A stretch of DNA of 64,000 nucleotides from an uncultured Burkholderiales bacterium (GTDB taxonomy: Bacteria; Pseudomonadota; Gammaproteobacteria; Burkholderiales; Burkholderiaceae_C): NCBI GenBank assembly GCA_903876885.1, contig CAIRBP010000091.1, forward strand, positions 1 through 64,000, in the 5' to 3' direction. The notes below the pieces were generated by a model, which had not been told where the DNA came from, made no database searches, and worked only from the letters and a program-made list of their open reading frames with translations. The translations under genes were made by a program, and so were the position numbers. Each line of letters starts with the position of its first letter. Position 1 is the stretch's first letter. Positions 8,418-32,291 of the stretch are shown piece after piece.

Positions 8418-8434
8418 TAATGGTTGAAGTGAGG

Positions 8435-9652
8435 TTATTTAATCTTAAAGATTTTCATTGCGTTTCCACCTTCGATGAGTTTTCTGTCCTCTGCTTTGAG
8501 TTTTGAGACCTCAGCGATTAAGCCCCTAGGATCATCCTCTCCCATGTCATAAGGATAATCTGTTCCGAGCATAACGTGATCTGATCCGTAGCGATCGATC
8601 AGATTTTTAAGCATTCTTGGATCAAAAGTGATGGTGTCAAAGTAGAACTTCTCCAGATAGCTAGAGGGCTTCTTTTTAATCACTGTTCTTGTATCGGGTC
8701 TTGCGCGCCAAGCATGGTCCATTCTTGCCCAGTAGTGGGCGACAAATCCGCCGCCGTGAGCGGCAATGAATTTGATTTTCGGGTGGCGAGCTACAACACC
8801 GTCAAATATGAGGTGGCTGACCGCAATGGTCGTATCTAGTGGATTACCAATCACATTGTTGAAGTAATGGTTAGTCAAACGCTCACCTTGCGTAAAACCT
8901 AACGGGTGCATAAAAATCACTGTACCTAGCTCATTTGCTTTAGCAAAGAACTTCTCTAAACCAAGACGTGGATCGGTTAGGTTCATACCATTGACGTTGG
9001 TGTTTATCTCCACACCACGCAGGCCTAGTTTCTTCACAGCGTACTCAAGCTCTTGGACAGCGAGCTCAGGGTTTTGAAGGGGTACAGAGCCCATTCCAAC
9101 AAACCGGTCTGGATGGTCTGCAACCAAACTGGCGATACCTTCGTTTACTTCTCGGGCAAGTTCAGCACCATATGCTGGCTCGGTAAAATAAAAGTAGTGA
9201 TAGGGTGCTGGACAAACGGCCTGAATATCCACTCCCATTTTGTCCATATCTTTTAAACGCTCAGTGATACCAGTTAACTTAGGTGCACGCGTTTTCATCT
9301 GTGCAATATTGGTGTCATTCGTGAGCTTATTTGCATAAATAACAGTTGGATCGTACTGCGCAGCATTTAGGTGAGCGGTTTTTTGGTTAACAACTGGATT
9401 TAAGTAGTGGCAGTGAATATCCACAACCTTGTGTTTTCCTTTTGAGTTTTTAACAACCACTTTGCTTGATGGTTTTACCTTAACTGAGGCCTTGCTACTT
9501 GCTGATTTTTTGGTTGCAAGCGCTCTTGAAATGCCTTCATCTGATCCATCATTCAAGTAACCAGCCTCTTGCTCGTCAGTGCGGGACATACGAGCATTGG
9601 CCGAGTGGTTGTGAGAGGGATCTGAGCAAGTGGGGAGACATGTAAAAAACAT
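8435..9652 (-). CDS. Amidohydrolase-2 family metal-dependent hydrolase/decarboxylase (ACMSD-like)
   Basis: This 405-residue TIM-barrel enzyme belongs to the amidohydrolase-2 group that includes aminocarboxymuconate-semialdehyde decarboxylase. The metal ligands are visible in VDIHCHYLNP (HxH), in FMHP, in AAHGGG, and in the acidic GTDYPYDMGEDDP motif near the C-terminus. The barrel only begins around residue 75; before it is a low-complexity Ser/Lys-rich extension. The start at 9652 is supported by AAGGA a few bases upstream, but a start at the ATG for Met22 is possible. In this operon it fits a decarboxylation or hydrolysis step after ring oxidation. It follows the LivF gene. Confidence 0.82.
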   Translation of the reverse strand: MFFTCLPTCSDPSHNHSANARMSRTDEQEAGYLNDGSDEGISRALATKKSASSKASVKVKPSSKVVVKNSKGKHKVVDIHCHYLNPVVNQKTAHLNAAQYDPTVIYANKLTNDTNIAQMKTRAPKLTGITERLKDMDKMGVDIQAVCPAPYHYFYFTEPAYGAELAREVNEGIASLVADHPDRFVGMGSVPLQNPELAVQELEYAVKKLGLRGVEINTNVNGMNLTDPRLGLEKFFAKANELGTVIFMHPLGFTQGERLTNHYFNNVIGNPLDTTIAVSHLIFDGVVARHPKIKFIAAHGGGFVAHYWARMDHAWRARPDTRTVIKKKPSSYLEKFYFDTITFDPRMLKNLIDRYGSDHVMLGTDYPYDMGEDDPRGLIAEVSKLKAEDRKLIEGGNAMKIFKIK

Positions 9653-9712
9653 AGTTGTCCTTGGTAATTAAATTGGTAGGGATGAATTGAAAACTTGGAA
9701 AGATTTGTATTT

Positions 9713-10426
9713 TTAAAAAATACCTAAATGTTGTGTCGCTAAATCTGGCTTGGCATCAACCTCGGACGCTGTGCCTTTGAAAGCAACTCGTCCCGTATTG
9801 AGAATGACAAAATCATCAGCTAGAGATTTTGCTACAGAAAAATTTTGTTCGACAAGTATGATGGAGAGACCTTCGTTTTTAAGCTTTGAAATTGAATGGT
9901 TGACCTCTTGAACAATCAGCGGTGCTAAACCTTCAGATGGTTCATCGAGTAGCAAAACGCTTGGATTTCCCATAAGCGCTCTACCGATTACGAGCATTTG
10001 TTGCTCGCCCCCCGATAGAGTTGACGCTCGCTGGTTCTTCTTGGGTTGAAGCGCAGGGAACATTGAATAGATCTTAGATAGATCCCACTTAGAGCGATCT
10101 TCCGTTTTTTGCTCCGCAACGATTAGATTCTCCTCAACGCTTAAACTGGCGAACACTCTTCGCCCTTGAGGCACCAAACGAATACCGCTCTTGGCAATTG
10201 ACTCGGGGGACTGATGTGCAAAGTTCTTACCCTTAAGTCGCATCTCGCCAGAGCTGACCGCGAGCAAGCCAGAGATGGTCAGTTGTGATGTAGTTTTTCC
10301 AGCGCCGTTTCGCCCCATCAGTGCAAGAAGGTGACCCTCCTTCAGCTCAAAACTGACGTTGTGTAAGACGTGACTGTCACCGTAGTGGACATTAAGCTCA
10401 TGTATTTCAAGAATATTAGTGGCCAA
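9713..10426 (-). CDS. livF: Branched-chain amino acid-type ABC transporter ATPase, LivF
   Basis: This 237-residue ATPase has Walker A GRNGAGKTT, the signature LSGGEQQML and Walker B LLLDEPSEGL. The SEGLAP wording and the length are characteristic of LivF. It works with LivG to power uptake through LivH and LivM. Its start overlaps the end of livG by 11 bases. Within this catabolic block the transporter more likely imports an aromatic or organic acid than leucine, as many Burkholderiales Liv-type systems do. Confidence 0.92.
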   Translation of the reverse strand: MATNILEIHELNVHYGDSHVLHNVSFELKEGHLLALMGRNGAGKTTSQLTISGLLAVSSGEMRLKGKNFAHQSPESIAKSGIRLVPQGRRVFASLSVEENLIVAEQKTEDRSKWDLSKIYSMFPALQPKKNQRASTLSGGEQQMLVIGRALMGNPSVLLLDEPSEGLAPLIVQEVNHSISKLKNEGLSIILVEQNFSVAKSLADDFVILNTGRVAFKGTASEVDAKPDLATQHLGIF

Positions 10427-11156
10427 GGTAAATCTCCTTGGTTTTAGGGTGATTGACCACGGTATCTCTGTCTCCCTCGACGATCAATGTACCGTAGTGA
10501 AGGAGTGATATTTTCTCGGCAAACGCAAGTGCTACATCCATATCGTGTTCAATCATGACAATCGTTGTCGATCTGGGTATGGAAGCAATTAGATCCTTAA
10601 TCCAAAGCCGCTCGTCGTGGGAGAGTCCAGCTAGAGGTTCATCTAGCAGAAGTAGCTTGGGCTTTTGGGACATGGCAAGGCCAATCTCAATTCTGCGTTG
10701 TTCCCCGTAAGACATCTCACCCACTTTACGGGTTGCACTGCTTGATAAATCAACGCTTTTCAAAATCTCGAGTGCCTGCTCATACAACTCGTCTGTGACA
10801 GAGAGTTTTCTAAAGGCGTTAAACCTTTGACGACTAACGCCAAGTAAAGCGAGCACAACGTTGTGTGCAGCTGTTTCGTGGTTAAAAAGATTGATAATTT
10901 GAAAAGTTCGGCTCAAACCCATATGAGGGCGAGCCTGAGGGGGTAAGTACGTTACGTCTTTACCGTAGACCTCGACCGTTCCTGAGCTGGGGAGGAGCTC
11001 GCCAGTGATTTGGTTGAAAAGGGTTGTCTTGCCAGCTCCGTTTGGTCCAATAATCAAGCGTCGCTCACCGCTCTCAATTTGTAAATTGATATTGTTTGTG
11101 ACGGCAACCCCGCCGAATTTTTTACAAAGATTTTTAACTTCTAGGGCGAATGTCAT
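10416..11156 (-). CDS. livG: Branched-chain amino acid-type ABC transporter ATPase, LivG
   Basis: This 246-residue ATPase has Walker A GPNGAGKTT, signature MSYGEQRR and Walker B LLLLDEPLAGL, with the C-terminal EGD-V-NHP-EIYLGH tail typical of LivG. It overlaps the permease gene upstream by 4 bases and livF downstream by 11, showing tight translational coupling. Confidence 0.92.
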   Translation of the reverse strand: MTFALEVKNLCKKFGGVAVTNNINLQIESGERRLIIGPNGAGKTTLFNQITGELLPSSGTVEVYGKDVTYLPPQARPHMGLSRTFQIINLFNHETAAHNVVLALLGVSRQRFNAFRKLSVTDELYEQALEILKSVDLSSSATRKVGEMSYGEQRRIEIGLAMSQKPKLLLLDEPLAGLSHDERLWIKDLIASIPRSTTIVMIEHDMDVALAFAEKISLLHYGTLIVEGDRDTVVNHPKTKEIYLGH

Positions 11157-12097
11157 GATTTCTTGCCCGCCTTTGATTTTAAAAAGTTTAAGTTAGAAGA
11201 TACGATTCCTTTGGGTAAGAAAATCACAATGAACAAGAAAACAAATCCAAGCAGCATATTCCAACGCTCTATGTAAGCAGATGCATAATTTTTCAGAATA
11301 ACTACCAAGATAGCCCCAAACACGGGTCCGAGTAAGGTGCCTGAGCCTCCTGCGATCACACAAAGCAAGGACTCTGCGGACATGGTGATTGCCATTACGC
11401 TTGGATGTATGAATTTATGGAAGTACACATACAAAAGTCCCGCCACAGCGCCAAAGAACGCGGCTGCGACATATGTGAACCAACGAATTGCCCAAACGTT
11501 ATAACCCAAAGCTGTCATTCGCCTTGGCTGGTCCCTTGTCCCTTTGATTGAGGCTCCGAACGCAGACTGCACAATCTGGCGAATCAGGCCCAAACACACA
11601 AGGGTGATGAGAAGGGTGAACCAAAAGAAATGACTACTAACCTCCAAGTCAATGCCAAAGGGTGAAGGACGCGTAAGTCCTGATAATCCGTTGTCTCCAT
11701 TCGTGACAGCTACCCACCTGTAAGCAAGCCCCCAAACAATTTGGGAGAGGGCTAATGTCAGCATTAAAAATCCGAGTCCAGTTGCACGAAGTGCAATCCA
11801 CCCGAATACCATGCCAATAAGAGTAGTGAGTAAAAGTGCTGCCGGTGCAGTAACCGCATGCTCAAGTCCAAGGTTAATACCCATCCAGGCTGATAAGTAT
11901 GCAGCAAGCCCAAGAAAACAAGCATGGCCAAGCGAGGTAAGGCCTGCGTAGCCAACCAAAAGATTCAAGCTTGATGCAAAGATAACAGCAATTAGCGCTT
12001 GACTTGCGAGGTTTACAAAGTATTCATCTCCGTAAAGAGGGAGCAGTGCCAGCACAAAAACCGCACAGAGAATAAGTAGTTGACGCCAGTTTTTCAT
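11153..12097 (-). CDS. livM: Branched-chain amino acid-type ABC transporter permease, LivM
   Basis: This 314-residue inner-membrane protein has about nine hydrophobic segments and the LivM hallmarks NLLVGYAGLTSLGHACFLG near residue 45 and AGGSGTLLGP near residue 250. It forms the channel with LivH. It starts inside the last codons of livH (ATGA overlap). Confidence 0.92.
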   Translation of the reverse strand: MKNWRQLLILCAVFVLALLPLYGDEYFVNLASQALIAVIFASSLNLLVGYAGLTSLGHACFLGLAAYLSAWMGINLGLEHAVTAPAALLLTTLIGMVFGWIALRATGLGFLMLTLALSQIVWGLAYRWVAVTNGDNGLSGLTRPSPFGIDLEVSSHFFWFTLLITLVCLGLIRQIVQSAFGASIKGTRDQPRRMTALGYNVWAIRWFTYVAAAFFGAVAGLLYVYFHKFIHPSVMAITMSAESLLCVIAGGSGTLLGPVFGAILVVILKNYASAYIERWNMLLGFVFLFIVIFLPKGIVSSNLNFLKSKAGKKS

Positions 12098-12954
12098 GTG
12101 ATCACACGTCCAAAGAGACCTTGAGGTTTAAACGCGATAACGATCACCATAGGTAAAAACAAAATTACATACGCAAGATCAGGTACAAGTGCTATGCCAA
12201 ATGTATAAATAAAACCAACAATGAAACTTGCAACAAAAGTGCCGAAAAGACTTCCCACGCCACCAAGAATTACAACAATTAACGCCAGGGGCAACATGTC
12301 CGCGTCCAGTCCTGGGTAGGCATTAAAAATAGGGCCACCGAGCGCTCCGCCTAAGCCGGCCAGGCCCGCGCCTAAACAAAATACAGTTGTGAATAAAAAA
12401 GATGCCGGTATGCCCACAGCCCTGGCCATGTTCATATCATCAACGCCCGCCCTGATCATTGCCCCAATTTTTGTTCGCTCGATCAGTAGATACAAAAGCG
12501 TGGCAATGATTACAGCAATTGTTAAAACGACCAGCCGATATGTCGGGAAACTCAAATCCAACAAATGAATAGGTGTTTGAAACATCACAGGAGTTGAGAC
12601 CGGAATGGGGTCACCTCCCCAAGCCATTAAACAAAAATCTGCAGCTATAAAGGACAGTCCCAATGTTGCAAGAACCTGACCTTGGGAGTTACCAGATAGA
12701 CGTCTCAAAATAAAACGTTCAATCAACCCCCCTAAAACTGCAATGCTGAGCATCGCTGCAATGTCGGCGAAGAATAGGCTAGTCCCATTCCTCACCAACA
12801 CCGCAGTAATGTAGGCGCCAATCATAAATAAAGCGCCGTGCGTTAAGTTAGCTATACGCATTAATCCGAAAATCAGTGCAAATCCAGAGGAAAGCATAAA
12901 GAGCAATCCCCCTAGTGATAGGCTATTTAACGTTTGGATAATCCAGATTTGCAT
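12094..12954 (-). CDS. livH: Branched-chain amino acid-type ABC transporter permease, LivH
   Basis: This 286-residue permease has the LivH hallmarks GLMRIANLTHGALFMIGAY near residue 30, GAMIRAGVDDMNMARAVGI near residue 165 and VVILGGVGSLFGT in the last third. It is coupled by a 4-base overlap to livM and starts 10 bases after the binding-protein gene. A second, distinct LivH is encoded at the right end of the window. Confidence 0.92.
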   Translation of the reverse strand: MQIWIIQTLNSLSLGGLLFMLSSGFALIFGLMRIANLTHGALFMIGAYITAVLVRNGTSLFFADIAAMLSIAVLGGLIERFILRRLSGNSQGQVLATLGLSFIAADFCLMAWGGDPIPVSTPVMFQTPIHLLDLSFPTYRLVVLTIAVIIATLLYLLIERTKIGAMIRAGVDDMNMARAVGIPASFLFTTVFCLGAGLAGLGGALGGPIFNAYPGLDADMLPLALIVVILGGVGSLFGTFVASFIVGFIYTFGIALVPDLAYVILFLPMVIVIAFKPQGLFGRVIT

Positions 12955-12964
12955 GGTTTTATTC

Positions 12965-14206
12965 TTAAGATTCCAAATTCTTCGCGGGTGGCCAATCTCT
13001 TGAATACACAGGGTTTGCCAAGAACTGCTTTTGATCGTAAGTCCAGAACTGGCTTATGTTGGGGTACGTTCTCACAATGGAGTTGACCAATCGACCATCT
13101 TTTCTCTCAACCTCGCGGATATAGACGTCCCCCACCACATTGCCCAGTGAGTCAAAGGAGAGGGGGCCACGAGCGGTTTGAATATTTGTTTTGCGAAGGG
13201 CGGCCATCAGCGCAACGCGGTCAGTGAACTTTCCTTTTACTGCCTCAACTGCAGCCTCAAGCACTGAGCCGTTTACATAGGATCCTGCAGCGTAGTAACC
13301 AGGATCATAGCTAAATGCTTTTCTAAATGCAGGAGCAAATTTTGCGTTAATAGGATTTTTCAGCTCAGCTGAGTACCAACATACAGTTTGAATGCCAAGT
13401 GCTTCATCGCCCATATTTCTGAGCACGGATTCATCAAGTGCAGTCATTCCGCCGATCAGAGCCATTTTGTTTTTAAGACCGTATTCATTGAACTGACGCA
13501 CAAACCTAAATCCGTTAGAGCCAGCAAAGCCTAGGAAAATTCCGTCTACGTTAGTCTTGAGTTGTGCAAGGAAACTCCCGTAATCGGGAGTAGTGAGCGG
13601 AGAGAAAATCTTTTGAACAATCTTGCCACCACCCTCCTCAAAGACACGTTGGAAACCTGCGTTCATTTCATGACCATATGCAATGTCATCTGCAATCATG
13701 GCCATACGTTTGAATTTAAGATTTTTGATGCAGTGGTCTGCCATCACGTGCGCAGATTGCGCAGAAGAGGAGGTCGCTCTAACAAACCAGGGATTGGCTT
13801 TGCGTTGGGTCATATCCTCAGCTGCTGCAACGGAGAGGGTCGGGATTTTATTGGCCTTGATGTAGTCATCAATCGCAAGCGCCTCAAACGCCGCCAGTGG
13901 TCCTGTTAAAACATGTATTTTGTTCAGCTCATAGAGCTCTTGAATTTTTGACTTAGCTGTAGCAGGTACCCCCCCTGTATCTGCAACAAAGAGTTGCACT
14001 TTCTTGCCAGCCATCATATTGTTTCGCTCACTTAGATACATGGTGAGCGCGCGCTCCATGTCAATACCGCCTGAGGCAAGTGGTCCCGTTTTGACAGTTA
14101 AGAGTCCTAAGCGCAGCACATCATCATCTGCTGCGTTAGCCTGTGGAAAGGCCATGGCAGCGCCTGCGGCCGCTGTGGTTTGTATGAAATTTCTTCTAGT
14201 TGTCAT
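12965..14206 (-). CDS. Liv-type ABC transporter substrate-binding protein
   Basis: This 413-residue periplasmic binding protein has an N-terminal export signal with TTRRNFIQTT followed by a hydrophobic stretch and ANAAD, which looks like a twin-arginine signal. The mature part begins LRLGLLTVKTGPLASGG, the usual start of type I LivJ/LivK-like binding proteins, and continues with the two-lobed fold. AAGGAG precedes the ATG by 5 bases. It determines the ligand of the LivHMGF system downstream; the ligand is unknown but should match the pathway of the surrounding enzymes. Confidence 0.88.
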   Translation of the reverse strand: MTTRRNFIQTTAAAGAAMAFPQANAADDDVLRLGLLTVKTGPLASGGIDMERALTMYLSERNNMMAGKKVQLFVADTGGVPATAKSKIQELYELNKIHVLTGPLAAFEALAIDDYIKANKIPTLSVAAAEDMTQRKANPWFVRATSSSAQSAHVMADHCIKNLKFKRMAMIADDIAYGHEMNAGFQRVFEEGGGKIVQKIFSPLTTPDYGSFLAQLKTNVDGIFLGFAGSNGFRFVRQFNEYGLKNKMALIGGMTALDESVLRNMGDEALGIQTVCWYSAELKNPINAKFAPAFRKAFSYDPGYYAAGSYVNGSVLEAAVEAVKGKFTDRVALMAALRKTNIQTARGPLSFDSLGNVVGDVYIREVERKDGRLVNSIVRTYPNISQFWTYDQKQFLANPVYSRDWPPAKNLES

Positions 14207-14242
14207 GATGTCTCCTTGAGTGTTTTAGGATTTACTGAACGC

Positions 14243-15994
14243 TTATTTTTTTGGAATTACTGGAATTAACAAATAGTTCTGCATTTCTTTTGAAAAATGC
14301 AAGCTACTTTGTCCTGCAAATACTTTTGATGGACGATCCCTTGGGTCATCGTGTAAGAAAGGTCCACATCCCAATAACTCATTTTTAAAGTTAGAGAGTT
14401 TGAGTCCCGTTTTCTTAGAATAAGTGTAGTCCTTACCGCGCACACTTAAACCAATTCTGTAGCCCTTAGGGATAACGATAGATGTGGGCCATATCTCTAC
14501 GTCCAGCTCAACAGGTTGACTCGGGACTAAAGGCTCGGGTGATTTGTGAGTGTGGTAAGGACGATAAGGGCGTGTTAGCGCTTTATCCAGCGCTCTGTGT
14601 GACGCTCTGAGCCAGCCTTGTGCGACAGGTGTGTGCGGGTCAATAGCGCCTGCAAAAGTTACCTCGCGTAGATCGGGTGTGAAAATCCTTACTACTAAAA
14701 AGACATCTGCATCACTTGTCGTTGAGGATACCCAAAGCTTTGCGGCCATCGGGCCTGTGAGCTCAGTCTGCTCGTCAAGAGGTTTGGATAAGAAACTAAG
14801 TCCCTCTCCTTGAGCATCAAAAGACAGAATACGGTTTTCATCACCCCTTGCAACTTCTTGCTGAAGACCTTGTTGGGTAGGCTCTAGGTAGAGACGTGTC
14901 CATTTGGTTTGGGGGAGTGGCCAGTCGGTCTCGGTGCGGTCTTCAAAATGATCCACATGCCTTACTTGCAATCGAACTGAGGGCTCTTTGTCCCACCCAT
15001 TGTTCTCACCTTTTAGAAAATGTGCAAAAAAGCGTTTTTGAAGTGAGACTCCGTAGTCGGTATAAAAATGAGTCCAGTGCTCTAAACCGTGCATCTCTAG
15101 CCACTTGTTTTTTGATGCGGCTCTCATAAAGGACTCACTGTTTCCCCTCAGATGAAGACCTTGTCCGCCCCAGTTACCTGCTGACAAAAAGGGCACAGTG
15201 ATTTGGTCCCAATGTGCAGATCTAGCTCTGTGATACTCATCATCAAGCGGGTGAGCCAAAATATCATCACCAAAGGAACACCTGTTTTTTAGGAGTGTCT
15301 TGTCGTCCAACGTTTCATCCCCGCAGACGAGTGTTCCTGTTGCTTTATTTTTGGGCCCGCGTTCTCCCAGGCCGTATTGGACTGTTTTTACCTGCATGTC
15401 ATACCAATTAGCCCAAAAGGTGGATAAGATTCCACCGTGGTGAGTCATATCTCTGTACCAATCGGATGCGCCTTCCCAGATGCACATTGCCGCTAGGTGA
15501 GGCGGGTTTAGACCCGCAACGTGCCACTGATTGATACCAAAGTAGGACACACCGCTTAGACCTACTTTGCCGTTACTCCAGTCTTGCACACCCGCCCATT
15601 CGATGCATTCATAAAAGTCCTGTGTTTCCCGTGGGGAAAAGTGATCGATAAATCCGGGGGAACGTCCACAGCCCCTTGAGTCAACTCTCACACAAACATA
15701 CCCATCAGGAACCCATTTCTCAGGATCAACGACTTCCCAGTTTTGGTAAAGATTGCTAGACCCATAAGGTACATCAGGGTGCTCAGTGATCATCTTTTGC
15801 CAAGCACTGGGGTAGCCCTCTTGAAACGCCAATCCCTTTGCATAGGGGCCATAGCTAAGTAGGACGGGGTATTTGCCGGGTGTCTTTGGTCGGAAGACAT
15901 CTGCGCGCAGTGTGAGCCCATCGCCCATATCTATGGGTACATCCCAGTCTATATGCATGTAAGAGGGTGTCTTAGATTGAGATAGCTCGTTCAT
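14243..15994 (-). CDS. CocE/NonD-family serine hydrolase
   Basis: This 583-residue alpha/beta hydrolase belongs to the X-Pro dipeptidyl-peptidase (S15)/CocE family of esterases and amidases. The N-terminal domain carries the nucleophile motif SGVSYFG and the oxyanion-region DSRGCGRSPG. After an inserted helical cap it ends in a jelly-roll X-Pro C-terminal domain (residues about 340-560, including ELDVEIWPTS and GYRIGLSVRG). Relatives hydrolyse esters and amides such as cocaine or cephalosporin esters. Here it probably opens or de-esterifies the imported compound, because it sits just upstream of the transporter and downstream of the flavin monooxygenase. It has no signal peptide. Confidence 0.82.
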   Translation of the reverse strand: MNELSQSKTPSYMHIDWDVPIDMGDGLTLRADVFRPKTPGKYPVLLSYGPYAKGLAFQEGYPSAWQKMITEHPDVPYGSSNLYQNWEVVDPEKWVPDGYVCVRVDSRGCGRSPGFIDHFSPRETQDFYECIEWAGVQDWSNGKVGLSGVSYFGINQWHVAGLNPPHLAAMCIWEGASDWYRDMTHHGGILSTFWANWYDMQVKTVQYGLGERGPKNKATGTLVCGDETLDDKTLLKNRCSFGDDILAHPLDDEYHRARSAHWDQITVPFLSAGNWGGQGLHLRGNSESFMRAASKNKWLEMHGLEHWTHFYTDYGVSLQKRFFAHFLKGENNGWDKEPSVRLQVRHVDHFEDRTETDWPLPQTKWTRLYLEPTQQGLQQEVARGDENRILSFDAQGEGLSFLSKPLDEQTELTGPMAAKLWVSSTTSDADVFLVVRIFTPDLREVTFAGAIDPHTPVAQGWLRASHRALDKALTRPYRPYHTHKSPEPLVPSQPVELDVEIWPTSIVIPKGYRIGLSVRGKDYTYSKKTGLKLSNFKNELLGCGPFLHDDPRDRPSKVFAGQSSLHFSKEMQNYLLIPVIPKK

Positions 15995-24085: not shown

Positions 24086-24733
24086 TTAAAAATTTAAATT
24101 GGAGAGATATAAGGCTACGGCTCGGGCTTGTTGGTCGTTAATATTATGAATAATTTGCTTCATAACTTGCCCCCTTGGGCGATCATCTGTAGTTTGGAAT
24201 ATTAATATTTGTTTATATAAATAGTTGTTGTGCTGTCCTGCAAGTCTAGGGATATCAGCCGCACCGAGCGCATCTTGGCCGTGACAACTGCTACAAGATA
24301 AAACTTGTTGTAAGGGTAAGCCATTTTTAAAAATCGATTCGCCTAAAATTATCTCTGGGCCTTGCGCTTTAGTACCTCTCATTGCTGGTTGTGTTGCAAA
24401 ATATGAGGCTAACTCATCAATTTGTTTTGTAGTTAAGTTTGTCATTCCCCACATGTATTGAGTGCCGTTGATATCCTTTCTAAGATGACCTTTGAAGTCC
24501 GTCAATTGGGCTCTAAGGTATGACTCTTGTTGGCCAGCGAGTTTGGGAAATTGTTGGGAAGTGGATTGTCCTGTAATTCCATGACAATTCGAGCAAGATT
24601 GAATTGCAATTTCATTCCCCTTTAGTGACGGATCGTTCAAATTTCTTCCCTTATCAGGACTTACGCAGGCTACTAACGCTATGCTTATAAGAAGGGTAAA
24701 AATAAATTTGAATTTGTGGAGTTGTTGGTTCAT
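24086..24733 (-). CDS. Diheme c-type cytochrome lipoprotein (cytochrome c4-like)
   Basis: This 215-residue exported protein begins with a lipoprotein-type signal ending LVAC (Cys near residue 23). It has two heme c motifs, CSNCH near residue 50 and CSSCH near residue 148, with downstream LAGQ and MWGMTN methionine-ligand regions in each half. The duplicated layout is that of cytochrome c4, an electron carrier to terminal oxidases or reductases. It lies 15 bases downstream of the CxxCH-barrel protein, so both are cotranscribed from the FNR-type promoter. It would be anchored in the membrane facing the periplasm. Confidence 0.88.
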   Translation of the reverse strand: MNQQLHKFKFIFTLLISIALVACVSPDKGRNLNDPSLKGNEIAIQSCSNCHGITGQSTSQQFPKLAGQQESYLRAQLTDFKGHLRKDINGTQYMWGMTNLTTKQIDELASYFATQPAMRGTKAQGPEIILGESIFKNGLPLQQVLSCSSCHGQDALGAADIPRLAGQHNNYLYKQILIFQTTDDRPRGQVMKQIIHNINDQQARAVALYLSNLNF

Positions 24734-24748
24734 GGCGTTGACTCCTTT

Positions 24749-26215
24749 TTAAAATGCAACCCATGCATACAGATATGCTGAGTTGTTATCTGACGCATTT
24801 CTATTTTTGCCGTCATAATTGGTTGGAGTACCTAAGTACTGTGTGAATACGTTGTATTGGAGTCCAAGACGTAGATTTTGAACGGGTAGCCAAAATATTT
24901 CAGGCGTCCAAAGTTTTGTGTCTGGAGTGTTACTATTACTTGACCCTGAACTAGGCGATGGTGAGGCAGGGGGAGCGTTAGTGTTTGTGTAACTTGCATA
25001 AGCGGTGGAGTCTGGTGAACCGTTGATACTGCGATAAGCAATGTCAGCGCCGTATAGATTCCTGTAGGTGTAGGTGATTTTTGCAAATATTGAATTTGTA
25101 CGCGATGGACCTACATAACTTTGTCCAGTATCGTCATTTATATTTTCTCGAACAAACCGTAAATGGGCTGAAACTGTGTGTGGATCGAGTAAATACTGAT
25201 ATTGAGCATCAATCCCCTTATCCTGATAGTGAGTCGATGGTCCAAATTGTGGCAGATTTGTTATTGGATCTAAAGCATAAACGTTTGCGTTCATCGCTAT
25301 CAAGCCGATCATTATATTTTGCTCATTCCAATCATGTGTGTAGGCAACGCGCAGGTATGGACTTATTCCCTGGGTATAGGTTAATGGATGATTAGGGTCA
25401 CCAATTTTGTTGCCTTGACTTAAAAATTTCCAGAAACCTGTAGCAGTTTGGTACCCAGTCAGCTCAATATAAATTGCCTTATTTAAATATGCATATGCCC
25501 CCGCACCGGCTACTTGAGTAGAGAATTTTCCATCTAATATTGTTGAAGCAGGCAGCCCGTTAAATCCACTTGCATTACCAGAGGGTGCAACGTACGGATA
25601 CCCCCAGGCTGATACGCTATTCCAGACATCTTGAACCCCGGGATTGTTGTTAACGCTTAACCCTACTATAAGATCATTGTTGCTTGAGATAAAACGATTT
25701 GCGTATCTAAGATCCGTATTATCAGAACCCAGATGGCCTTGCCAAGTATTCGCGTTTGAGTCTTGTTTGTCGTAAACTGAATAAGTTATCTGTACAAAGC
25801 CACCTAAATTATCTGTTACCTTACCTGCAATAAATCCACTGCCGTAATCAATAATTGGTAAATTATTTAAAGGTGCAATTGTCGTATTGGATGTTGAATC
25901 GGTATTCGACTTATTTTTCGTTACGTCTGCAACTACCATCGCAGCAAAGGGGTTACCCTGGGTGCCTATGGTATAGCCAGTTAACTTGAAAATTCTGCCA
26001 TAAGGGGTTAACTCTGGGAATTGACCTCCCGCGTGACAGGCTACGCAACTTTGTCCTGTTTGTCGTGCAAAGGCCGGGAGCGCCTTAGTATGTCCGACTA
26101 ATCCAAAGTAAAGAAGAGCGGAGATAACGATAAAAGTCTTGTTCAGGGAGATTCTAAAATTTTGTGAATCTTTATTTTTTCGAACTCTTGTTGAGCCATA
26201 AGAATATTGTCTCAT
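24749..26215 (-). CDS. Outer-membrane-barrel-like protein with one N-terminal heme c motif
   Basis: This 488-residue exported protein has a signal sequence ending near residue 47, a single heme motif CVACH shortly after it (QTGQSCVACHAG), and then about 400 residues rich in alternating polar/aromatic strands. It ends YLYAWVAF with a C-terminal phenylalanine, as in outer-membrane beta-barrels. GGGAGA lies 7-8 bases before the ATG. It is cotranscribed with the diheme cytochrome downstream. I infer a heme-bearing porin-like protein that may move electrons at or across the outer membrane; similar unassigned cytochrome-like proteins occur in Burkholderiales. The barrel prediction is by eye. Confidence 0.72.
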   Translation of the reverse strand: MRQYSYGSTRVRKNKDSQNFRISLNKTFIVISALLYFGLVGHTKALPAFARQTGQSCVACHAGGQFPELTPYGRIFKLTGYTIGTQGNPFAAMVVADVTKNKSNTDSTSNTTIAPLNNLPIIDYGSGFIAGKVTDNLGGFVQITYSVYDKQDSNANTWQGHLGSDNTDLRYANRFISSNNDLIVGLSVNNNPGVQDVWNSVSAWGYPYVAPSGNASGFNGLPASTILDGKFSTQVAGAGAYAYLNKAIYIELTGYQTATGFWKFLSQGNKIGDPNHPLTYTQGISPYLRVAYTHDWNEQNIMIGLIAMNANVYALDPITNLPQFGPSTHYQDKGIDAQYQYLLDPHTVSAHLRFVRENINDDTGQSYVGPSRTNSIFAKITYTYRNLYGADIAYRSINGSPDSTAYASYTNTNAPPASPSPSSGSSNSNTPDTKLWTPEIFWLPVQNLRLGLQYNVFTQYLGTPTNYDGKNRNASDNNSAYLYAWVAF

Positions 26216-26517: not shown

Positions 26518-26709
26518 TCAGGCGTAGGTGTTTACATTATTCCCTTGTGTTAATGAAGCAAGAAGCTGCTGGGCAACTGCGGGTGCAGGAGTTGTTTCAG
26601 CTGCAGCTGGCGCAGGAGTTGCTAATGATGCTTGCTGCCATTGAGCTACGCTACTTTGGACTGCTTGCGCCATAGCAGCGCCGCCACCAGAACCAATTTT
26701 CATACCCAT
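26518..26709 (-). CDS. Small Ala-rich protein with MGMKIGS N-terminus (possible peptide precursor A)
   Basis: This 63-residue protein begins MGMKIGSGGGAAMAQ, passes through an Ala/Pro/Thr-rich centre and ends QGNNVNTYA. The ATG at 26709 is chosen because AAGGAG lies exactly 5 bases upstream; a GTG two codons earlier would overlap that site's spacing. It has its own terminator and an optimal binding site, so it is probably a real, well-expressed gene. Its first seven residues match those of the 147-residue protein at 30183 except K/R at position 4. There is no signal peptide and no Cys. I do not recognise a family. A leader-core precursor for the neighbouring ATP-grasp enzyme is one hypothesis. 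Confidence 0.72.
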   Translation of the reverse strand: MGMKIGSGGGAAMAQAVQSSVAQWQQASLATPAPAAAETTPAPAVAQQLLASLTQGNNVNTYA

Positions 26710-26732
26710 GTTCACTCCTTGTTACGAACGAG

Positions 26733-26765
26733 CTCTTATCAAGATTTGATGAGTAAACTCTTATC
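26733..26765. repeat. Direct repeat upstream of the small protein gene
   Basis: CTCTTATC occurs at 26733-26740 and 26758-26765 (GATAAGAG on the minus strand), a 25-bp period. It lies 24-56 bases upstream of the small protein's ATG, in the divergent region shared with the ATP-grasp gene, so it may be an activator or sigma-factor recognition element. Confidence 0.4.
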
Positions 26766-26867
26766 GTGGTCTTACAATCGGATCAAGTAGCAAAAACTTT
26801 AGCCTCTAAATAATTAAAAATTGATGGAATTTACGAAAATAATTAATAAAAAGGGAAATATAAATAT

Positions 26868-28118
26868 ATGGCACATCTTTTAATTATCGACCTTCCAGGC
26901 GGGAATGATACTGATATATTTAAAGCAGCTAAGAGCAGGGGAGATAGTTTCACTTTTTTAACCTCTGATTTGAATTTGTATCTTAGCCAAGAGCTAGTGA
27001 AAAACTATTTGGATGATGCCTACCAACTTATAGAGGTGAAGGACTTTGTATTTGAGTCTGTGTTAGCTAGAGTACTTGCTGTTCATCAAAATGCGCCAAT
27101 ACAAGCTGTGGTGTGCCTAATTGAAATTAGACTTCTCGAGGCCTCTAAATTAGCAACCGTGTTAGGGGTTCAATATCTAAACCTAAATACTGCTGTTCTT
27201 TTGAGGGATAAATATAGCGTTCGTCGACGCTTGGCGGAAAAAGGAATCGTGCAACCTGAGTTTGCGTTGGCAACGACGACAGATGAAATTAAGTTAGCAG
27301 TCAAAGAACTAGGTCTTCCGCTAATTATCAAGCCTTCTGATGGGTATGGGTCTCAAAATGTAGTTGTTCTGCAAACTGAATTAGATCTAGATCCTTTAAT
27401 TAGCCCTGTAGAAATTATGCTCCCAAGCCGAGCTGATTACGGCTTAGGAGTAAAAGCTAACGATAGAATATTAGTTGAACGTTATATCAAAGGTGATTTT
27501 ATTGGCGTTGATACCTTAACTCTGAATGGTGTTCACAAGTTTTTGGGTATTAATGTTAAAAAGATGTTTTCACCCCCATCATTTGCAATTCAAGGGGGAA
27601 GTTTTACACCTAGAAATGACACACATGTTGAACTTGAGAGATACGTTTTTGAAATTTTGGACGCTGTTGGTTTTAATTGCGGCGCAACTCATATTGAATT
27701 GATGTTAACTACAGATGGTCCAAGGTTAATTGAAATTAACCCGCGACTAGTTGGCGCTAAGATTGCTCGTTTGGTTGGTTTTGCAATGAGCCGTTCTTTA
27801 CACTCTGACCTAATTGACATTCATTTGGGTAGATGGCCCGTAGGACTTGAGAATACAGACCGCAACCAAGTTGCTGTTTCCAGGTGGTTTACCTCTCCTG
27901 TTTCAGGAACTATTAAGAGTTTAGTTCTCCCGAATTGGACAGATCCAAACATAAAGTGTGTCGAGTTTTTGAAGAAAGAGGGAGATAGTGTAATGCCTGC
28001 CTTTGAAAATGCAGAGAGGTTAGGATATGTTATGGCTTGTGGAAAAAATGAGGAATCTGCTATTGAACTTGTTGACAGATATATAGAAGAAACAGATATC
28101 TTCATCAATCAAGTATGA
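26868..28118 (+). CDS. ATP-grasp ligase (L-amino-acid-ligase-like)
   Basis: This 416-residue ATP-grasp enzyme has a pre-ATP-grasp N-terminal domain to about residue 105. Then come the ATP-binding segments LLRDKYSVRRRLAEKGI and GLPLIIKPSDGYGSQNV, and the metal/ATP motif THIELMLTTDGPRLIEINPRL. The EINPRL wording resembles carboxylate-amine ligases such as L-amino acid ligases. These activate a carboxylate as acyl phosphate and join it to an amine. The gene is divergent from the small Ala-rich protein and convergent with the WD40 gene. A role in making an isopeptide, ester or dipeptide bond on or from the small proteins is possible but unproven. Confidence 0.82.
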   Translation: MAHLLIIDLPGGNDTDIFKAAKSRGDSFTFLTSDLNLYLSQELVKNYLDDAYQLIEVKDFVFESVLARVLAVHQNAPIQAVVCLIEIRLLEASKLATVLGVQYLNLNTAVLLRDKYSVRRRLAEKGIVQPEFALATTTDEIKLAVKELGLPLIIKPSDGYGSQNVVVLQTELDLDPLISPVEIMLPSRADYGLGVKANDRILVERYIKGDFIGVDTLTLNGVHKFLGINVKKMFSPPSFAIQGGSFTPRNDTHVELERYVFEILDAVGFNCGATHIELMLTTDGPRLIEINPRLVGAKIARLVGFAMSRSLHSDLIDIHLGRWPVGLENTDRNQVAVSRWFTSPVSGTIKSLVLPNWTDPNIKCVEFLKKEGDSVMPAFENAERLGYVMACGKNEESAIELVDRYIEETDIFINQV

Positions 28119-28134
28119 ATTAAATAGATTTATT

Positions 28135-29826
28135 TTAATTTGCAGCGAGCCTATACATTTCACCGTCGTACGAGCCGGCTATAAAATACTCCTTTAAGTG
28201 ATCCCATGCAATTGAGGAAATTCCCGAACTAGTAGGGCGTGCGGTTTTTATCCAAGCTTTCTTATTTAAATCGAATAAGCTGAGCGTTCCCCCGTAACTC
28301 CCGGTCAATATAACTGTTCTGTCACTATTGATACCAATACATTTAACTGAATTTTTATGAGGAGTTACGTATGTGGATGACTCAGTACCCTCCCAAATAC
28401 GAAGTTTAAGATCACGGCCAACACTTGCAAATTTATTTTTGCCGATAGCACAGCATGCATTGGTTATCTTTTCATGAGCATTTTCTTTCGTATTTATAAG
28501 CTTCCAGTCGTAAACTGAATACCAAGAAATTTGCGTTGAAGCACAAACACTAAAAAGCAATCCATCTGAAAAACTAAGTCCCTTGACTGCATTTACAAAT
28601 GCTTCAATCGTATGCACAAACTGAATTTGGTTGTTCTGTAAAATTCTGAAAATTATTATCTCGCCTGTATAAGAGCCAATAGCAATATGATTAGAACCAC
28701 CAATATCAAAAGAAATTCCGCAGTTTAGTGGTGAGTGGTGGCTATAAAGAACTTCACCAGTGCGTGCGTTAAATAATCTACCCAACTGTCCACCAGTTAT
28801 TAATAACTTCCCGTTAGATATAAGAAAATTACAAAGACTCCCCATTTCATGCGTAGCCTCGCCATTTATATGAACTATGCCAGAATCTCCAACCGAGTAA
28901 ACTTGCCCATCTACCATTTGGACCGCATTTATAGCTTTACCTCCAGCAACTCCTTTAGTATCCCAGGTTTGCGATTGCAAGTCATATAAAGCATATGTAG
29001 ATCCAAATGTCCCGGTAGCAATCTTACCGTTGTCCATAATGCACGCAGCTCTTGCCCATACTGAATCCGGATAAGTTGTTCTTGATAACTCTCTTAGTGA
29101 CAAGTCCTCGTTAATATGCCAAATCGCCATAGACCTGTCATAGCTTAGCGATACAATTTTTTTTGCTAGAAAATCAACTACTAATTTCTTGATGCCAGCA
29201 TGGTGGGCTTGAAAAAATTTAACATCTTTCCCATTGATTACAGAAATTCTTCCTAGATCATCTCCAGCGAAAAGTGTCCCATTTAGATCTACTTCTACAC
29301 TGTCAGTTCTTACGTCTAAGTTAGTGGTTTGAACCAGCTCTCCAGTATTTGCGTCCCAACGTCGTATGGTTCCATCAACACTGGATGAGATCACAAACTG
29401 GCCATCTTTAGACCAAGATACACTTAAAACATTTCCCGTATGGCCAGCCATGGTGAGTAAACAACGTCCATCGACACTGAATATTCGAACAAGCCTGTCT
29501 AGAGAGCAAGTCGCAATTTTGAGATCATCGGGCGAGAAAACTGCCATATCTACATCATCTCCGTGACCCGGTAAAACAGTTTGAAGTCGCATAGAGGGAA
29601 TTGACCATAGTCGCGCGGAATAATCGCTACTCGCACTTATTAGCCATTTACCGTTGTTGCTAAAACGACAGTCATTTACTAAATGATCATGACTGCCCTT
29701 TGCTATGGCAGTTCTATTCTGGATATCCCAAAGTATTACTTGATTGTCATACCCTGCGGTTGCTATCCAATTACCTTTGGAAGCTAAACCAGCTATTGGA
29801 CCTTTATGTTGAATCATTGTTTGCAT
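28135..29826 (-). CDS. WD40-repeat beta-propeller protein
   Basis: This 563-residue protein is built almost entirely of WD40 blades. Clear repeats in the first 190 residues include VILWDIQ, ARLWSIP, VRIFSVDG and IRRWDANTG, each preceded by an xGH or xDH dipeptide. Later blades are degenerate (ISWYSVYDW, LRIWEGTE, LSLFDLNK). The length suits two seven-bladed propellers. There is no signal peptide or enzymatic domain, so a protein-interaction scaffold in the cytoplasm is the best guess. It is convergent with the ATP-grasp gene, with only 16 bases between the stops, and divergent from the MGMRIGS protein. Confidence 0.88.
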   Translation of the reverse strand: MQTMIQHKGPIAGLASKGNWIATAGYDNQVILWDIQNRTAIAKGSHDHLVNDCRFSNNGKWLISASSDYSARLWSIPSMRLQTVLPGHGDDVDMAVFSPDDLKIATCSLDRLVRIFSVDGRCLLTMAGHTGNVLSVSWSKDGQFVISSSVDGTIRRWDANTGELVQTTNLDVRTDSVEVDLNGTLFAGDDLGRISVINGKDVKFFQAHHAGIKKLVVDFLAKKIVSLSYDRSMAIWHINEDLSLRELSRTTYPDSVWARAACIMDNGKIATGTFGSTYALYDLQSQTWDTKGVAGGKAINAVQMVDGQVYSVGDSGIVHINGEATHEMGSLCNFLISNGKLLITGGQLGRLFNARTGEVLYSHHSPLNCGISFDIGGSNHIAIGSYTGEIIIFRILQNNQIQFVHTIEAFVNAVKGLSFSDGLLFSVCASTQISWYSVYDWKLINTKENAHEKITNACCAIGKNKFASVGRDLKLRIWEGTESSTYVTPHKNSVKCIGINSDRTVILTGSYGGTLSLFDLNKKAWIKTARPTSSGISSIAWDHLKEYFIAGSYDGEMYRLAAN

Positions 29827-30182
29827 CTTAAATTTAGTTATGGTTTGGCTTTGGTTTCAAACGTTTTATTACAGCAATATCTACACCATTAAGAAAATTA
29901 CCCTTAATTGAGAAAATCGGCTATTGATCGCCATACAGGCAGAGTAATACTGTGTAAGCGGCAATCTTTGGCCGTTGGTACAACTTAGGACAAATTAAGT
30001 ACTATCTTAGGAAATATAAAAAATATTAATTAAATCAACAATTTAACTCATTTAAATCAAGAATGAATAAGCGGTCTTAAGCTCAGACTCATCTGGCTTG
30101 AAATATGCATTGATTTAAAAGATTTCATACAAGCCTTTGGATGACAAAGAGGTTAATTAAACGAATAACGAAGGAGTTTTAT
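29827..30182. other. Intergenic region between the WD40 gene and the MGMRIGS protein
   Basis: This 356-base AT-rich gap holds promoters for both flanking genes. CTTAGGA is repeated at 29984-29990 and 30006-30012 (22-bp period). A sigma-54-like element occurs at 30094-30109. A reading frame that starts at 30141 is simply an upstream extension of the MGMRIGS gene without its own binding site. Confidence 0.5.
30094..30109 (+). promoter_or_regulatory. Weak sigma-54-like promoter
   Basis: TGGCTTGAAATATGCA has the essential GG-N10-GC spacing and 9 of 12 positions of the sigma-54 consensus, with the TGGC and TGCA blocks intact. It would start a transcript near 30121, about 60 bases before the MGMRIGS start. 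The match is too weak to stand alone. Confidence 0.3.
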
Positions 30183-30626
30183 ATGGGAATGCGAATCGGA
30201 TCAAGTGATGTTATGGCTATGCAAAGCACTGCTATGAATCAAACAAGTCAAAAGCAGCAACATGTTTCTAATCTATTTTCTGCTTTAGATTCTGGAGATT
30301 TAGCAAGCGCGCAAAAATCATATTCAGCGCTTGGCTTAAGCTCAGGTACTACCGGAATGAATTCTCCTTTAGCTCAAATCGGAAAAGCCCTGGATTCAGG
30401 AGACCTAGCAGGAGCTCAGAAAGTTGCTAAATCAATGAAGAGCAAAGACACCTCGGCTGTATCTGAAGCCACAGCAACAACAACAGCGACCAATATCGGG
30501 AATACAAAACCAGCTACTCAATCTGCTCCTTCCGCATCTTCAGACTTAGCAAGTGAGTTGCTTTCAGATTTTTCATCTGCATCTTCAGTTTTGGGTCTCG
30601 GAGGATTGGTAAATAAATTGGTTTAG
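30183..30626 (+). CDS. Small MGMRIGS protein with internal duplication (possible peptide precursor B)
   Basis: This 147-residue protein begins MGMRIGSSDVMAMQS, nearly the same as the protein at 26518-26709. The start at 30183 is set by AAGGAG 6 bases upstream. An internal duplication repeats ALDSGDLA at residues 34-41 and 69-76, each followed by x-AQK, with a 35-residue period. The C-terminal third is Ser/Ala/Thr-rich and ends in a hydrophobic LGLGGLVNKLV tail. There is no Cys and no signal peptide. It lies 51 bases before the flavin reductase-like gene and is probably its operon partner. I do not recognise a family. Confidence 0.75.
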   Translation: MGMRIGSSDVMAMQSTAMNQTSQKQQHVSNLFSALDSGDLASAQKSYSALGLSSGTTGMNSPLAQIGKALDSGDLAGAQKVAKSMKSKDTSAVSEATATTTATNIGNTKPATQSAPSASSDLASELLSDFSSASSVLGLGGLVNKLV

Positions 30627-30677
30627 TAAATCAAGGCATTTATTCAGTGTCTTGTTTAAATCATATGGCTAGATTAA

Positions 30678-31250
30678 ATGAAAAATGTATTATTTTTATC
30701 AGGTAGTCAAAGAAAGGATTCGTTTAATCGGAGACTCCTTAATAACTTAGCCAAAAGAATAGAGGGAAAAGTTGTTATTGATATGGTTAAATCTGGGGAG
30801 GTAGATTTCCCTTTGTTTGATCAGGATATGGAGTTTAATCCCGAAATTCAAGAAAATGTCTTTGCATTCCATGCTCGTATTTCATCCAGTGATGCTATGG
30901 TTATTGCCTGTCCTGAATACAATGGATTAATTACCCCATTCCTTAAAAACACTATTGATTGGGTTTCTCGACTTCAATATTTGAATTCTGGATGTGCAAA
31001 TGCATTTATTGACAAACCTGTGCTCTTGGTTAGTGCTTCCACCGGATGGAGCGGAGGGGCCGTGGGTCTCCCAAGTGCTAGAACTTTATTTGGATACGTT
31101 GGTTGCCACGTAATGGGTGGCTCTATAACGATACCTAATATCAACCAACACATAAACGAATTTGAAATGGTTTTCAACTCGGATTATGAGAATTTAATCA
31201 ATTTCCATTTAAACCGTTTTATAAACGTTCTAAATGCTGTTAGTTGTTAA
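30678..31250 (+). CDS. NADPH-dependent FMN reductase-like protein
   Basis: This 190-residue flavodoxin-fold protein has the family motifs LSGSQRKDSFNRRLL near the N-terminus (FMN phosphate loop) and CPEYNGLITPFLKNTIDWVSR near residue 75. These define the SsuE/ChrR/azoreductase-type NADPH-dependent FMN reductase family. It could supply reduced flavin or act as an oxidoreductase on a partner of the neighbouring proteins. It is flanked by the MGMRIGS protein and the SUMF1-like protein in one direction, with short gaps (51 and 18 bases). Confidence 0.88.
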   Translation: MKNVLFLSGSQRKDSFNRRLLNNLAKRIEGKVVIDMVKSGEVDFPLFDQDMEFNPEIQENVFAFHARISSSDAMVIACPEYNGLITPFLKNTIDWVSRLQYLNSGCANAFIDKPVLLVSASTGWSGGAVGLPSARTLFGYVGCHVMGGSITIPNINQHINEFEMVFNSDYENLINFHLNRFINVLNAVSC

Positions 31251-31268
31251 ATAAAGAAATAATTCGCA

Positions 31269-32291
31269 ATGTCTGCTAGACAAAATATTCCTTCAGATTG
31301 GCATTGGCCTACTTTTGTTCCCTCTCTATGCGGAATGTCCGATGATCGCGAGCGCCTGGGTCTGCCTAAGCACTTCGCTTCCTTTAGGTTTGATGAGAGG
31401 CTTCCAATTTCATTCGCAAGACTAAGAGCTAGTTCTGTTGAGGAGCTTTTATGTATTGTTCAAGCTAAAAATTCACTTCTTGAAGATCGGATTGCTGCTG
31501 GGAATTTACTAGCAATCCTTGGGGATCCAAGAATTGCAGATGATACGCATAGCATGATTGATATACCCGGCGCCACTGTATCTATAGGCTTGAACTCTGA
31601 GGATATTTTGAAGGTGCTCGAAGAGTTTGACGGTCTTGGGCTGCAATCTAAGTGGATTGAAAAAGAATGTCCCAAGCATGTTGTTAAACTTAAACCCTTC
31701 AAAATGGCTAAGTATCTTGTGACAAATTCACAGTACAAGGTATTTTTAATGGATACTATGCATCCTGAGATACCGAGCAGTTGGGATTTTAGACGATATC
31801 CCTTCGAGCGAGCGAATCATCCAGTTTATACAATTTCTCCTGACTCAGCGGATGCTTACGCCAAGTGGTTAAAACTTAAAACTGGAATTCCCTACAGGCT
31901 ACCAACCGAGGCGGAGTGGGAATGGGCTGCATCTGGCCCTCATAATTTTCAATTCCCCTGGGGTAATACTTTCGATGCTAATCTTGCGAACACCGCAGAG
32001 ACGGGTCTTTTGACATCGTCTCCTGTTGGAGCTTTTGTTGGTGGGGAGTCAAGTTTCGGTATCGCTGACTTGGCAGGAAATGTAGAGGAATACGTCTCTG
32101 ATATTTACAAACCTTATCCGAACGGACATGCGGTGATTGATCATTTGGTTGAATTAAACGGTGAATATAGAGTGGCCAGAGGAGGTAGTTTCGCTAGGTT
32201 CAGAGATTTAGCTAGAACTAAGCGAAGGCATGGACATAATCCAAAATCAGCTGCTTATGCAATGGGTTTTAGACTCGCCTGTGACAATTAA
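31269..32291 (+). CDS. SUMF1/formylglycine-generating-enzyme-like protein lacking the catalytic Cys pair
   Basis: This 340-residue protein has a helical N-terminal region (to about residue 100) and a C-terminal FGE-sulfatase domain. The domain shows MAKYLVTNSQYKVFL, RLPTEAEWEWAASG, FPWGNTF, SSFGIADLAGNVEEYVSD, YRVARGGSF and MGFRLA. In true formylglycine-generating enzymes RGGS is followed by two copper-binding cysteines; here the stretch is ARFRDLARTKRR, without Cys. So it is probably another SUMF1-family activity (ligand binding, or mononuclear-iron chemistry as in EgtB relatives). Its stop overlaps the convergent chromate transporter gene by 4 bases. It is likely the last gene of the MGMRIGS operon. 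Confidence 0.85.
   Translation: MSARQNIPSDWHWPTFVPSLCGMSDDRERLGLPKHFASFRFDERLPISFARLRASSVEELLCIVQAKNSLLEDRIAAGNLLAILGDPRIADDTHSMIDIPGATVSIGLNSEDILKVLEEFDGLGLQSKWIEKECPKHVVKLKPFKMAKYLVTNSQYKVFLMDTMHPEIPSSWDFRRYPFERANHPVYTISPDSADAYAKWLKLKTGIPYRLPTEAEWEWAASGPHNFQFPWGNTFDANLANTAETGLLTSSPVGAFVGGESSFGIADLAGNVEEYVSDIYKPYPNGHAVIDHLVELNGEYRVARGGSFARFRDLARTKRRHGHNPKSAAYAMGFRLACDN

Follow-up and report, generated by a model that had tools for sequence, protein, structure and literature searches.

An L-amino-acid-ligase-type ATP-grasp enzyme encoded with MGM-starting small proteins and toxoflavin-type enzymes in Burkholderiales points to an undescribed small-protein modification

We describe a locus at positions 26518-32291 of a 64,000-nt stretch of DNA from an uncultured Burkholderiales bacterium (contig CAIRBP010000091.1, positions 1 to 64,000; the whole stretch is called the window hereafter). 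Judging from sequence, this locus combines toxoflavin-type enzymes with ribosomally synthesized small proteins starting with MGM and with an ATP-grasp enzyme of the L-amino-acid ligase type. The combination points to an undescribed small-protein modification. We give about even chances to a role of the small protein as covalent substrate or carrier of the ligase, within an accessory biosynthetic module with toxoflavin-like oxidative chemistry; the small proteins of the locus would then be chemically modified. The single enzymes belong to known families and what is new is their combination with the MGM small proteins. A keyword search of titles and abstracts in the open-access literature gave no description of this combination. 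A first-pass annotation of the same DNA had found no peptide-maturation class that it could name to match it. All six genes named in that annotation were found again at their positions.

Two of the six genes encode small proteins. The product of smallA (63 aa, 26518..26709, minus strand; MGMKIGSGGG...LTQGNNVNTYA) is a short form with conserved termini and an Ala/Pro-rich middle, and is the proposed substrate or carrier of the ATP-grasp ligase, which is encoded divergently from it (26868..28118, plus strand). The product of smallB (147 aa, 30183..30626, plus strand; MGMRIGSSDV...GLGGLVNKLV) carries two GDLxxAQ repeats. Their first seven residues, as annotated earlier, are identical apart from K/R, and the motif MGM[KR]IGS occurs at these two genes and nowhere else in the six-frame translation of the window. 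With only these two occurrences, and no MGM-type open reading frame (ORF) in 371 kb of control DNA, a chance origin of the shared start was rejected. By eye, ribosome-binding sites are clear on both small genes (AAGGAG for smallA, GAAGGAG for smallB), whereas those of the enzyme genes are weak or absent. No Pfam or NCBIfam match above cut-off was obtained for either small protein. Homologues of smallA lie beside the ATP-grasp gene in seven other loci (L025, L091, L092, L094, L095, L098 and L101; loci, genomes and families are designated by our own L, G and f numbers). The pooled ratio of non-synonymous to synonymous differences (pN/pS) of smallA was 0.23, over 28 non-independent pairs of eight sequences and 55 columns. 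Given this ratio and its conservation in relatives, smallA appears to be a genuine gene that is subject to purifying selection.

The ATP-grasp ligase and its co-occurrence with small proteins

The ligase matches both Pfam domains of the L-amino acid ligase (LAL) type, ATP-grasp_4 (E 1.4e-16; 61 bits for a cut-off of 27) and LAL_C2 (E 4.6e-11; 43.3 bits for a cut-off of 29.4). Among PDB profiles the first match was 4dim, named as a phosphoribosylglycinamide synthetase, followed by the L-amino acid ligases 3vot, 30vh and 4wd3, and weak similarity was seen to LysX and S6-modification structures (E 4e-4). Residues K155, E204, E277, E289, N291 and R293 are invariant in 8 aligned sequences. The enzyme shares its two domains and the conserved ATP-grasp residues with L-amino acid ligases of the BacD, BL00235 and DdaF type; in contrast to them, it lies beside a small-protein gene in 28 of 37 loci. 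Its scores are far under the cut-offs of the NCBIfam equivalogs named for L-amino acid ligases.

The gene set is patchily distributed among Burkholderiales bacteria. In drawn samples of genomes, each including the window genome, relatives of the ligase were found solely in this order: in 22/81 genomes of the genus, 3/298 of the family, 9/399 of the order (one of them, G460, distant) and 1/321 of the class (the window genome alone), as well as in 2/9, 2/32 and 1/12 genomes of three other families. One relative lies on a contig of a named metagenome-assembled genome, uncultured Burkholderiales Kiruna_bin-05775 (L025). The locus set used below comprises 37 loci, i.e. 38 minus that of G460, whose ligase is 27% identical. 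Counts over these loci are not independent, because 26/37, window included, come from the genus of the window; two loci (L086 and L089), both from G1083, may be parts of one. No relative of the L027 ligase was found in phages, and no match to our A2 profile in viral contigs. Plasmids gave 298 records with the L027 ligase as query, all under 60% identity (25-30% in the 20 matches listed), and no match with the L028 small protein. With no phage or viral ligase relative and only low-identity plasmid matches, a phage or plasmid module was rejected.

An MGM-starting small ORF, sought by MGM together with the C-terminal pattern described below, lies within 7 kb of the ligase in 28/37 loci. These loci encode 43 such proteins in total, usually one to three each, and 14 of the 28 have two or more. 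Among the nine loci without one, five (L087, L089, L090, L096 and L106) end at a contig edge next to the ligase or its neighbour. As a control, a pattern of the same kind gave 40 matches in the 456 kb lying within 7 kb of a ligase; 159 kb of more distant flank and 212 kb from other, in part overlapping, loci contained not a single one.

The first-pass annotation had allowed for a loose neighbourhood, taken here as one without common function. The variable gene order and strand, the absence of the flavin mononucleotide (FMN) reductase gene from 5/15 loci with the WD40 and SUMF1-like genes, the presence of repeat-family proteins elsewhere and the origin of 26/37 loci from one genus would all fit such an explanation. 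Yet the co-occurrence in 28/37 loci, as opposed to none in the 371 kb of control, and the recurrence of the gene set in families f1, f30, f38 and f43, in a single direction in f30 and f1, make it very improbable: the locus is more than a loose neighbourhood. The association between small proteins and enzymes put forward earlier was found at the level of loci, since 28/37 have an MGM protein and 15/37 the WD40 and SUMF1-like genes as well.

Termini of the small proteins

The two GDLxxAQ copies of smallB belong to a repeat of the form ALxSGDLxxAQ, which is missing from smallA. A hidden Markov model (HMM) of this repeat alone, so that the N-terminus gives no bias, was used to compare the termini of family members in the linked loci and in 27 other loci, some of them overlapping. 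It detected 32 members in ligase-linked loci and 16 distinct members elsewhere; no Pfam model scored above cut-off in the members scanned. The MGM start was found in 29/32 linked members and in 0/16 unlinked ones (Fisher p 4e-10, uncorrected for relatedness), the latter starting with MSM, MTV, MSV, MNV, MVM, MST, MSL, MGT and others. The three linked exceptions are a protein truncated by the contig start and one starting with MRL, both in L104, and one starting with MEM in L091. 'Unlinked' here stands for outside the ligase loci, as 3/16 of these ORFs come from genomes with a ligase elsewhere (two from the window genome, one from G184).

The window genome has two further divergent ORFs of the repeat family, on G000:C97 (L002:576-881 and 1426-1884), which are non-MGM and away from the ligase. 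In L115 (1099-2637), a 512-aa ORF with many GDLxxAQ repeats ends in SVNTSA and immediately precedes an ORF with a fliD-like sequence.

At the other end, smallA (GNNVNTYA) and smallB (GLGGLVNKLV) share the pattern [VIL][ND]xx[AV]-COOH. In the form [VIL][NDHS]xx[AV] it was present in 30/30 aligned linked proteins, most of which had been picked with such a pattern; a 292-aa protein of L086, ending in SISA, was excluded from this alignment. A conserved C-terminus recalls the carrier logic of LysW/LysX or RimK, where an ATP-grasp enzyme is encoded beside, or acts on, a small protein. Here the ligase would attach an amino acid to the small protein at its C-terminal carboxylate, and the group would be processed while tethered and then released. 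Along with the 30/30 count, the weak LysX/S6-modification similarity counts for this scheme, as does the fact that ATP-grasp ligases activate carboxylates. However, the same C-terminal pattern is carried by unlinked members (VNVLA, LNVTA, VNTSA), and for this lack of specificity the C-terminal motif was rejected as a ligase-specific tag. Moreover, LysW is a small protein with the acidic C-terminus EDWGE, whereas the locus small proteins end in VNTYA, VNKLV and similar, and no LysW-type acidic C-terminus was found in the aligned small proteins. We therefore regard carrier logic at the C-terminus as unlikely.

The C-terminus (VNxxA) appears instead to be a feature of the wider protein family. 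Since it is the same in linked and unlinked members while MGM is nearly confined to the linked ones, it is the N-terminal Gly-Met, and not the C-terminus, that goes with the ligase, in contrast to LysW/LysX. The ligase may recognize or modify this N-terminal Gly-Met. A leader or recognition role had been suggested for the conserved N-terminus in the first-pass annotation; the near-confinement of MGM to ligase-linked proteins argues for this role, and that annotation's overall interpretation is partly supported.

ToxC/ToxD-type partners and a small-molecule alternative

The last gene of the locus encodes a 340-aa protein of the SUMF1/formylglycine-generating enzyme (FGE) fold (31269..32291, plus strand; FGE-sulfatase E 1.6e-39). 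Residues 25-337 align with PDB 7spq_A 'ToxD' at E 1.7e-87. In the alignment to 8aru, both Cys of MCHRSYC face no Cys in the locus protein; this C-terminal pair is the catalytic, copper-binding one of FGE. While the FGE-sulfatase domain is shared with FGE (SUMF1), the cysteine pair is missing and ToxD is far closer, and for these reasons a formylglycine-generating function was rejected. The gene, first annotated as SUMF1/FGE-like, is rather that of a ToxD homologue without the FGE cysteines.

The 563-aa WD40 beta-propeller protein (28135..29826, minus strand; E 9.1e-42) was assigned to the ToxC type on the ground that it always accompanies the ToxD homologue, not by comparison with a ToxC sequence. 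It had been annotated as a WD40 scaffold; the gene is indeed there, but it is not anonymous, as it pairs with the SUMF1-like gene in 15/15 loci, as ToxC does with ToxD. Between smallB and the ToxD-type gene, starting 51 bp after the former and ending 18 bp before the latter, lies the gene of a 190-aa NAD(P)H-dependent FMN reductase-like flavoprotein (30678..31250, plus strand; FMN_red E 3.7e-30), whose best PDB matches are 3svl yieF, 3u7r and the chromate reductase 4hs4.

The WD40 and SUMF1-like genes occur together in the same 15/37 loci, every one of which has a small protein. The FMN reductase is present in 10 of these 15 and in 13/37 ATP-grasp loci overall. The full set proposed at first pass holds in part: ligase and small protein usually go together (28/37), but the WD40, FGE and FMN reductase genes are dispensable, 13/28 small-protein loci being without WD40 and SUMF1-like genes. 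Arrangements vary. In G517 (L044) five genes run in the same direction in the order small-WD40-FMN-FGE-ATP-grasp. In G1061 (L099) the order is smallA-WD40-FGE-FMN-ATP-grasp in one direction with smallB divergent; G1069 and G1077 (L102 and L103) have a similar order plus a Bug receptor gene, confirmed by Pfam TctC for L102. The window layout is found with extras in G1040, G1071 and G1092, namely a cyclohydrolase in G1040 and G1092 and a third MGM protein of 357-362 aa in G1040 and G1071. A single chromosomal site, recognized by common flanking genes, holds a Bug gene in G184 and G1082 and the WD40 and FGE genes in G1098 and G1061. Beside the ligase of L025, only a 22-residue remnant (72.7%, E 7e-5) matches the end of the SUMF1-like protein.

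In trees, the 15 linked sequences are separated from five sequences of RibA/RibD context with support of 96/99 for WD40 and 93/95 for FGE, the latter under the 95 mark; the two trees branch alike by eye (no formal congruence test). For these trees and that of the ligase, each locus was represented by its longest tblastn piece after removal of gaps, and none of the pieces used contained a stop letter. Two genes, that of WD40 in L086 and that of the ligase in L050, are each split into two pieces, of which the longer was taken; rows L054 and L055 of the WD40 tree have very long branches.

The same enzyme pair is found in the toxoflavin (tox) and pseudoiodinine (psd) clusters, as ToxD/PsdC and ToxC/PsdE. 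ToxC has been proposed as an oxidase for N-N bond formation (PMC12154649). In the pseudoiodinine pathway, mutants of psdC (sulphatase-modifying factor) and psdE (WD-40) are both rescued by 1,6-didesmethyltoxoflavin, and PsdE and/or PsdC are proposed to mediate N-N bond formation with glycine, a step that the authors call unclear (PMC9911603).

A further likeness to these clusters is a GTP cyclohydrolase II (ToxB type) in 4/37 linked loci, those of G517, G1092, G1047 and G1040 (the last with an in-frame stop), i.e. in 4/13 ligase genomes examined, G460 apart. A second copy elsewhere in each of these four genomes was taken as housekeeping. By contrast, the ligase, the frequent FMN reductase and the ribosomal small proteins set the locus apart from tox and psd, as does the separation of its WD40 and FGE sequences in the trees. 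No GTP cyclohydrolase II is present at the window locus; the one copy found elsewhere in the 68% complete assembly was taken as housekeeping. No RibD or methyltransferase homologue (ToxE, ToxA) was detected by tblastn with the G460 proteins (E 1e-6) in the window and the other fetched stretches, several of them truncated. Because the window has neither a dedicated cyclohydrolase nor RibD and methyltransferase genes, we do not call the locus a toxoflavin-type cluster; the chemistry may be common to both.

Related gene sets were seen in other contexts. L051 (G460), at 2000-15500, contains a toxoflavin-type cluster with WD40, SUMF1-like and RibA genes and, by eye, those of RibD, a methyltransferase and a pyridoxal phosphate (PLP) enzyme, together with an FMN-reductase-like gene and two distant ATP-grasp genes; it is a possible link between toxoflavin-type clusters and the ligase-small protein system. 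The Halobacillus litoralis plasmid pLDW-31 (Bacillota; L054) carries ToxC/ToxD-type genes with those of GTP cyclohydrolase II, FMN reductase, a PLP enzyme and a DUF692 gene. Of the 20 plasmid ToxD homologues listed, four were inspected: each is accompanied by ribA or ribD, together with a WD40 gene in three cases and a different beta-propeller gene in the fourth. In G1040, the locus cyclohydrolase II (C51:12357-12836, about L091:10758-11237) has an in-frame TAG and a repeat protein (L091:13312-13767) starts with MEM, suggesting possible decay in that branch.

The toxoflavin-type genes leave room for another explanation, namely that the product of the locus is a diffusible compound, azapteridine- or dipeptide-like, and that the small proteins serve to bind, store or export it, or to protect against it, without covalent modification. 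In known cases ToxBCD-type genes yield free small molecules, and the GTP cyclohydrolase II of four linked loci would suit such a product. Uptake of a compound is suggested by Bug-type receptor genes, which adjoin the ligase in 12/37 loci (by eye), and, near L105, by a TonB-dependent receptor. His-rich sequences are seen in several of the small proteins, and family members with the same C-terminal pattern exist outside the loci, some without a ligase. However, in the 13/28 small-protein loci without WD40 and FGE genes, the pair of small protein and ligase is independent of the toxoflavin-type enzymes. Nor would binding or storage alone account for a Gly-Met start that approaches invariance only in proteins encoded next to the ligase. 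We consider this small-molecule explanation the main rival, possible though less likely than covalent modification.

Outside the six genes, the region adjoining smallA (24086-26215, minus strand) encodes a cytochrome c protein, which has two haem-binding stretches, and a CxxCH protein of 488 aa that matches no Pfam model; this cytochrome c/outer-membrane pair lies beside the ligase only in the window, L091 and L105. Near position 20000, a G+C content of about 0.44-0.48 gives way to one of about 0.38-0.44, which persists to the end of the window. In a PADLOC scan of the six locus proteins, the sole match was that of the WD40 protein to HEAT-ARM_XIII (36.5 bits, residues 56-169 of 563). This was not a useful match and an anti-phage defence system was rejected.

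Proposed modification and its relation to known systems

In the mechanism that we propose, the ATP-grasp ligase would form an amide-type bond on the products of smallA and smallB, making them substrates or carriers, most likely at or near their N-terminus. The N-terminal Met, which precedes Gly, is probably removed; methionine aminopeptidase would expose a glycine in this position. The resulting Gly-Met-(Lys/Arg) end would be recognized, and possibly acylated, by the ligase. In loci that have them, the ToxC-type WD40 protein, the ToxD-type SUMF1-fold protein and the FMN reductase might then oxidize the attached group in a toxoflavin-like manner, by a chemistry that may resemble the N-N bond formation with glycine that has been proposed for pathways of the toxoflavin type.

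Several observations weigh against this proposal. Two linked, untruncated proteins start with MEM (L091) and MRL (L104), and four uncut ligase loci (L047, L048, L049 and L088) have no recognizable small protein. At the level of genomes, our small-protein profile A3 (E 1e-4) matches 9/399 genomes of the order, of which only G000 (the window genome) and G517 are among the nine ligase genomes, the others (G343, G345, G388, G395, G429, G474 and G556) giving no ligase match; the short forms of the ligase genomes G461, G549 and G606 are beyond the reach of the profile and were detected by a lax HMM limit or by pattern. Likewise, matches to smallB at E 0.01 occur in 15/299 genomes of the family, and the five at E 1e-9 or better include G000, G173 and G184, with ligase, as well as G080 and G067, without. 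Repeat proteins in ligase-free genomes imply that the repeat family is wider than the locus and that some members function without ligase. In addition, G1047 has the cyclohydrolase without WD40 and FGE genes, and the presence of these two genes costs nine changes on the ligase tree, at least five of them forced; they thus come and go, whereas ligase and small protein persist, and the joint function of the latter two, whatever it is, does not require them. Finally, the AlphaFold model of the ligase, built on a two-sequence alignment, had a mean pLDDT (predicted local distance difference test) of 36.9 and was not used, giving no structural support for binding between ligase and small protein.

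The locus also resembles those of ribosomally synthesized and post-translationally modified peptides (RiPPs) such as graspetides and pearlins, in that a small encoded precursor, conserved in 28/37 loci and with the low pN/pS given above, lies beside modifying enzymes. Graspetides use an ATP-grasp ligase; the locus ligase differs in being of LAL type. No domain of the pearlin LanB-like aminoacyl-tRNA ligase was found among the Pfam matches of the ten window genes scanned. Among the gene families near four or more loci, inspection by eye revealed neither a LanB-like protein nor a peptidase; an ABC ATPase was found near four. ToxC and ToxD are not known to act as RiPP enzymes.

A bolder version of the proposed modification, drawn by analogy with toxoflavin, has chemical appeal but seems a long shot to us. 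Once Met is removed, the N-terminal glycine would replace the free glycine of the toxoflavin-type proposal, and ToxC/ToxD-type enzymes would assemble an azapteridine-like ring with an N-N bond directly on the N-terminus of the protein, the parts being joined by the ligase. If true, the protein would thereby bear a genetically encoded flavin-like cofactor or warhead.

For genome mining, this ligase clade combined with small MGM-starting proteins no more than 7 kb away offers a clear handle. If the modification proposed here is true, the Burkholderiales loci would represent a class of small-protein modification uniting an LAL-type ATP-grasp enzyme with the poorly understood ToxC/ToxD pair.

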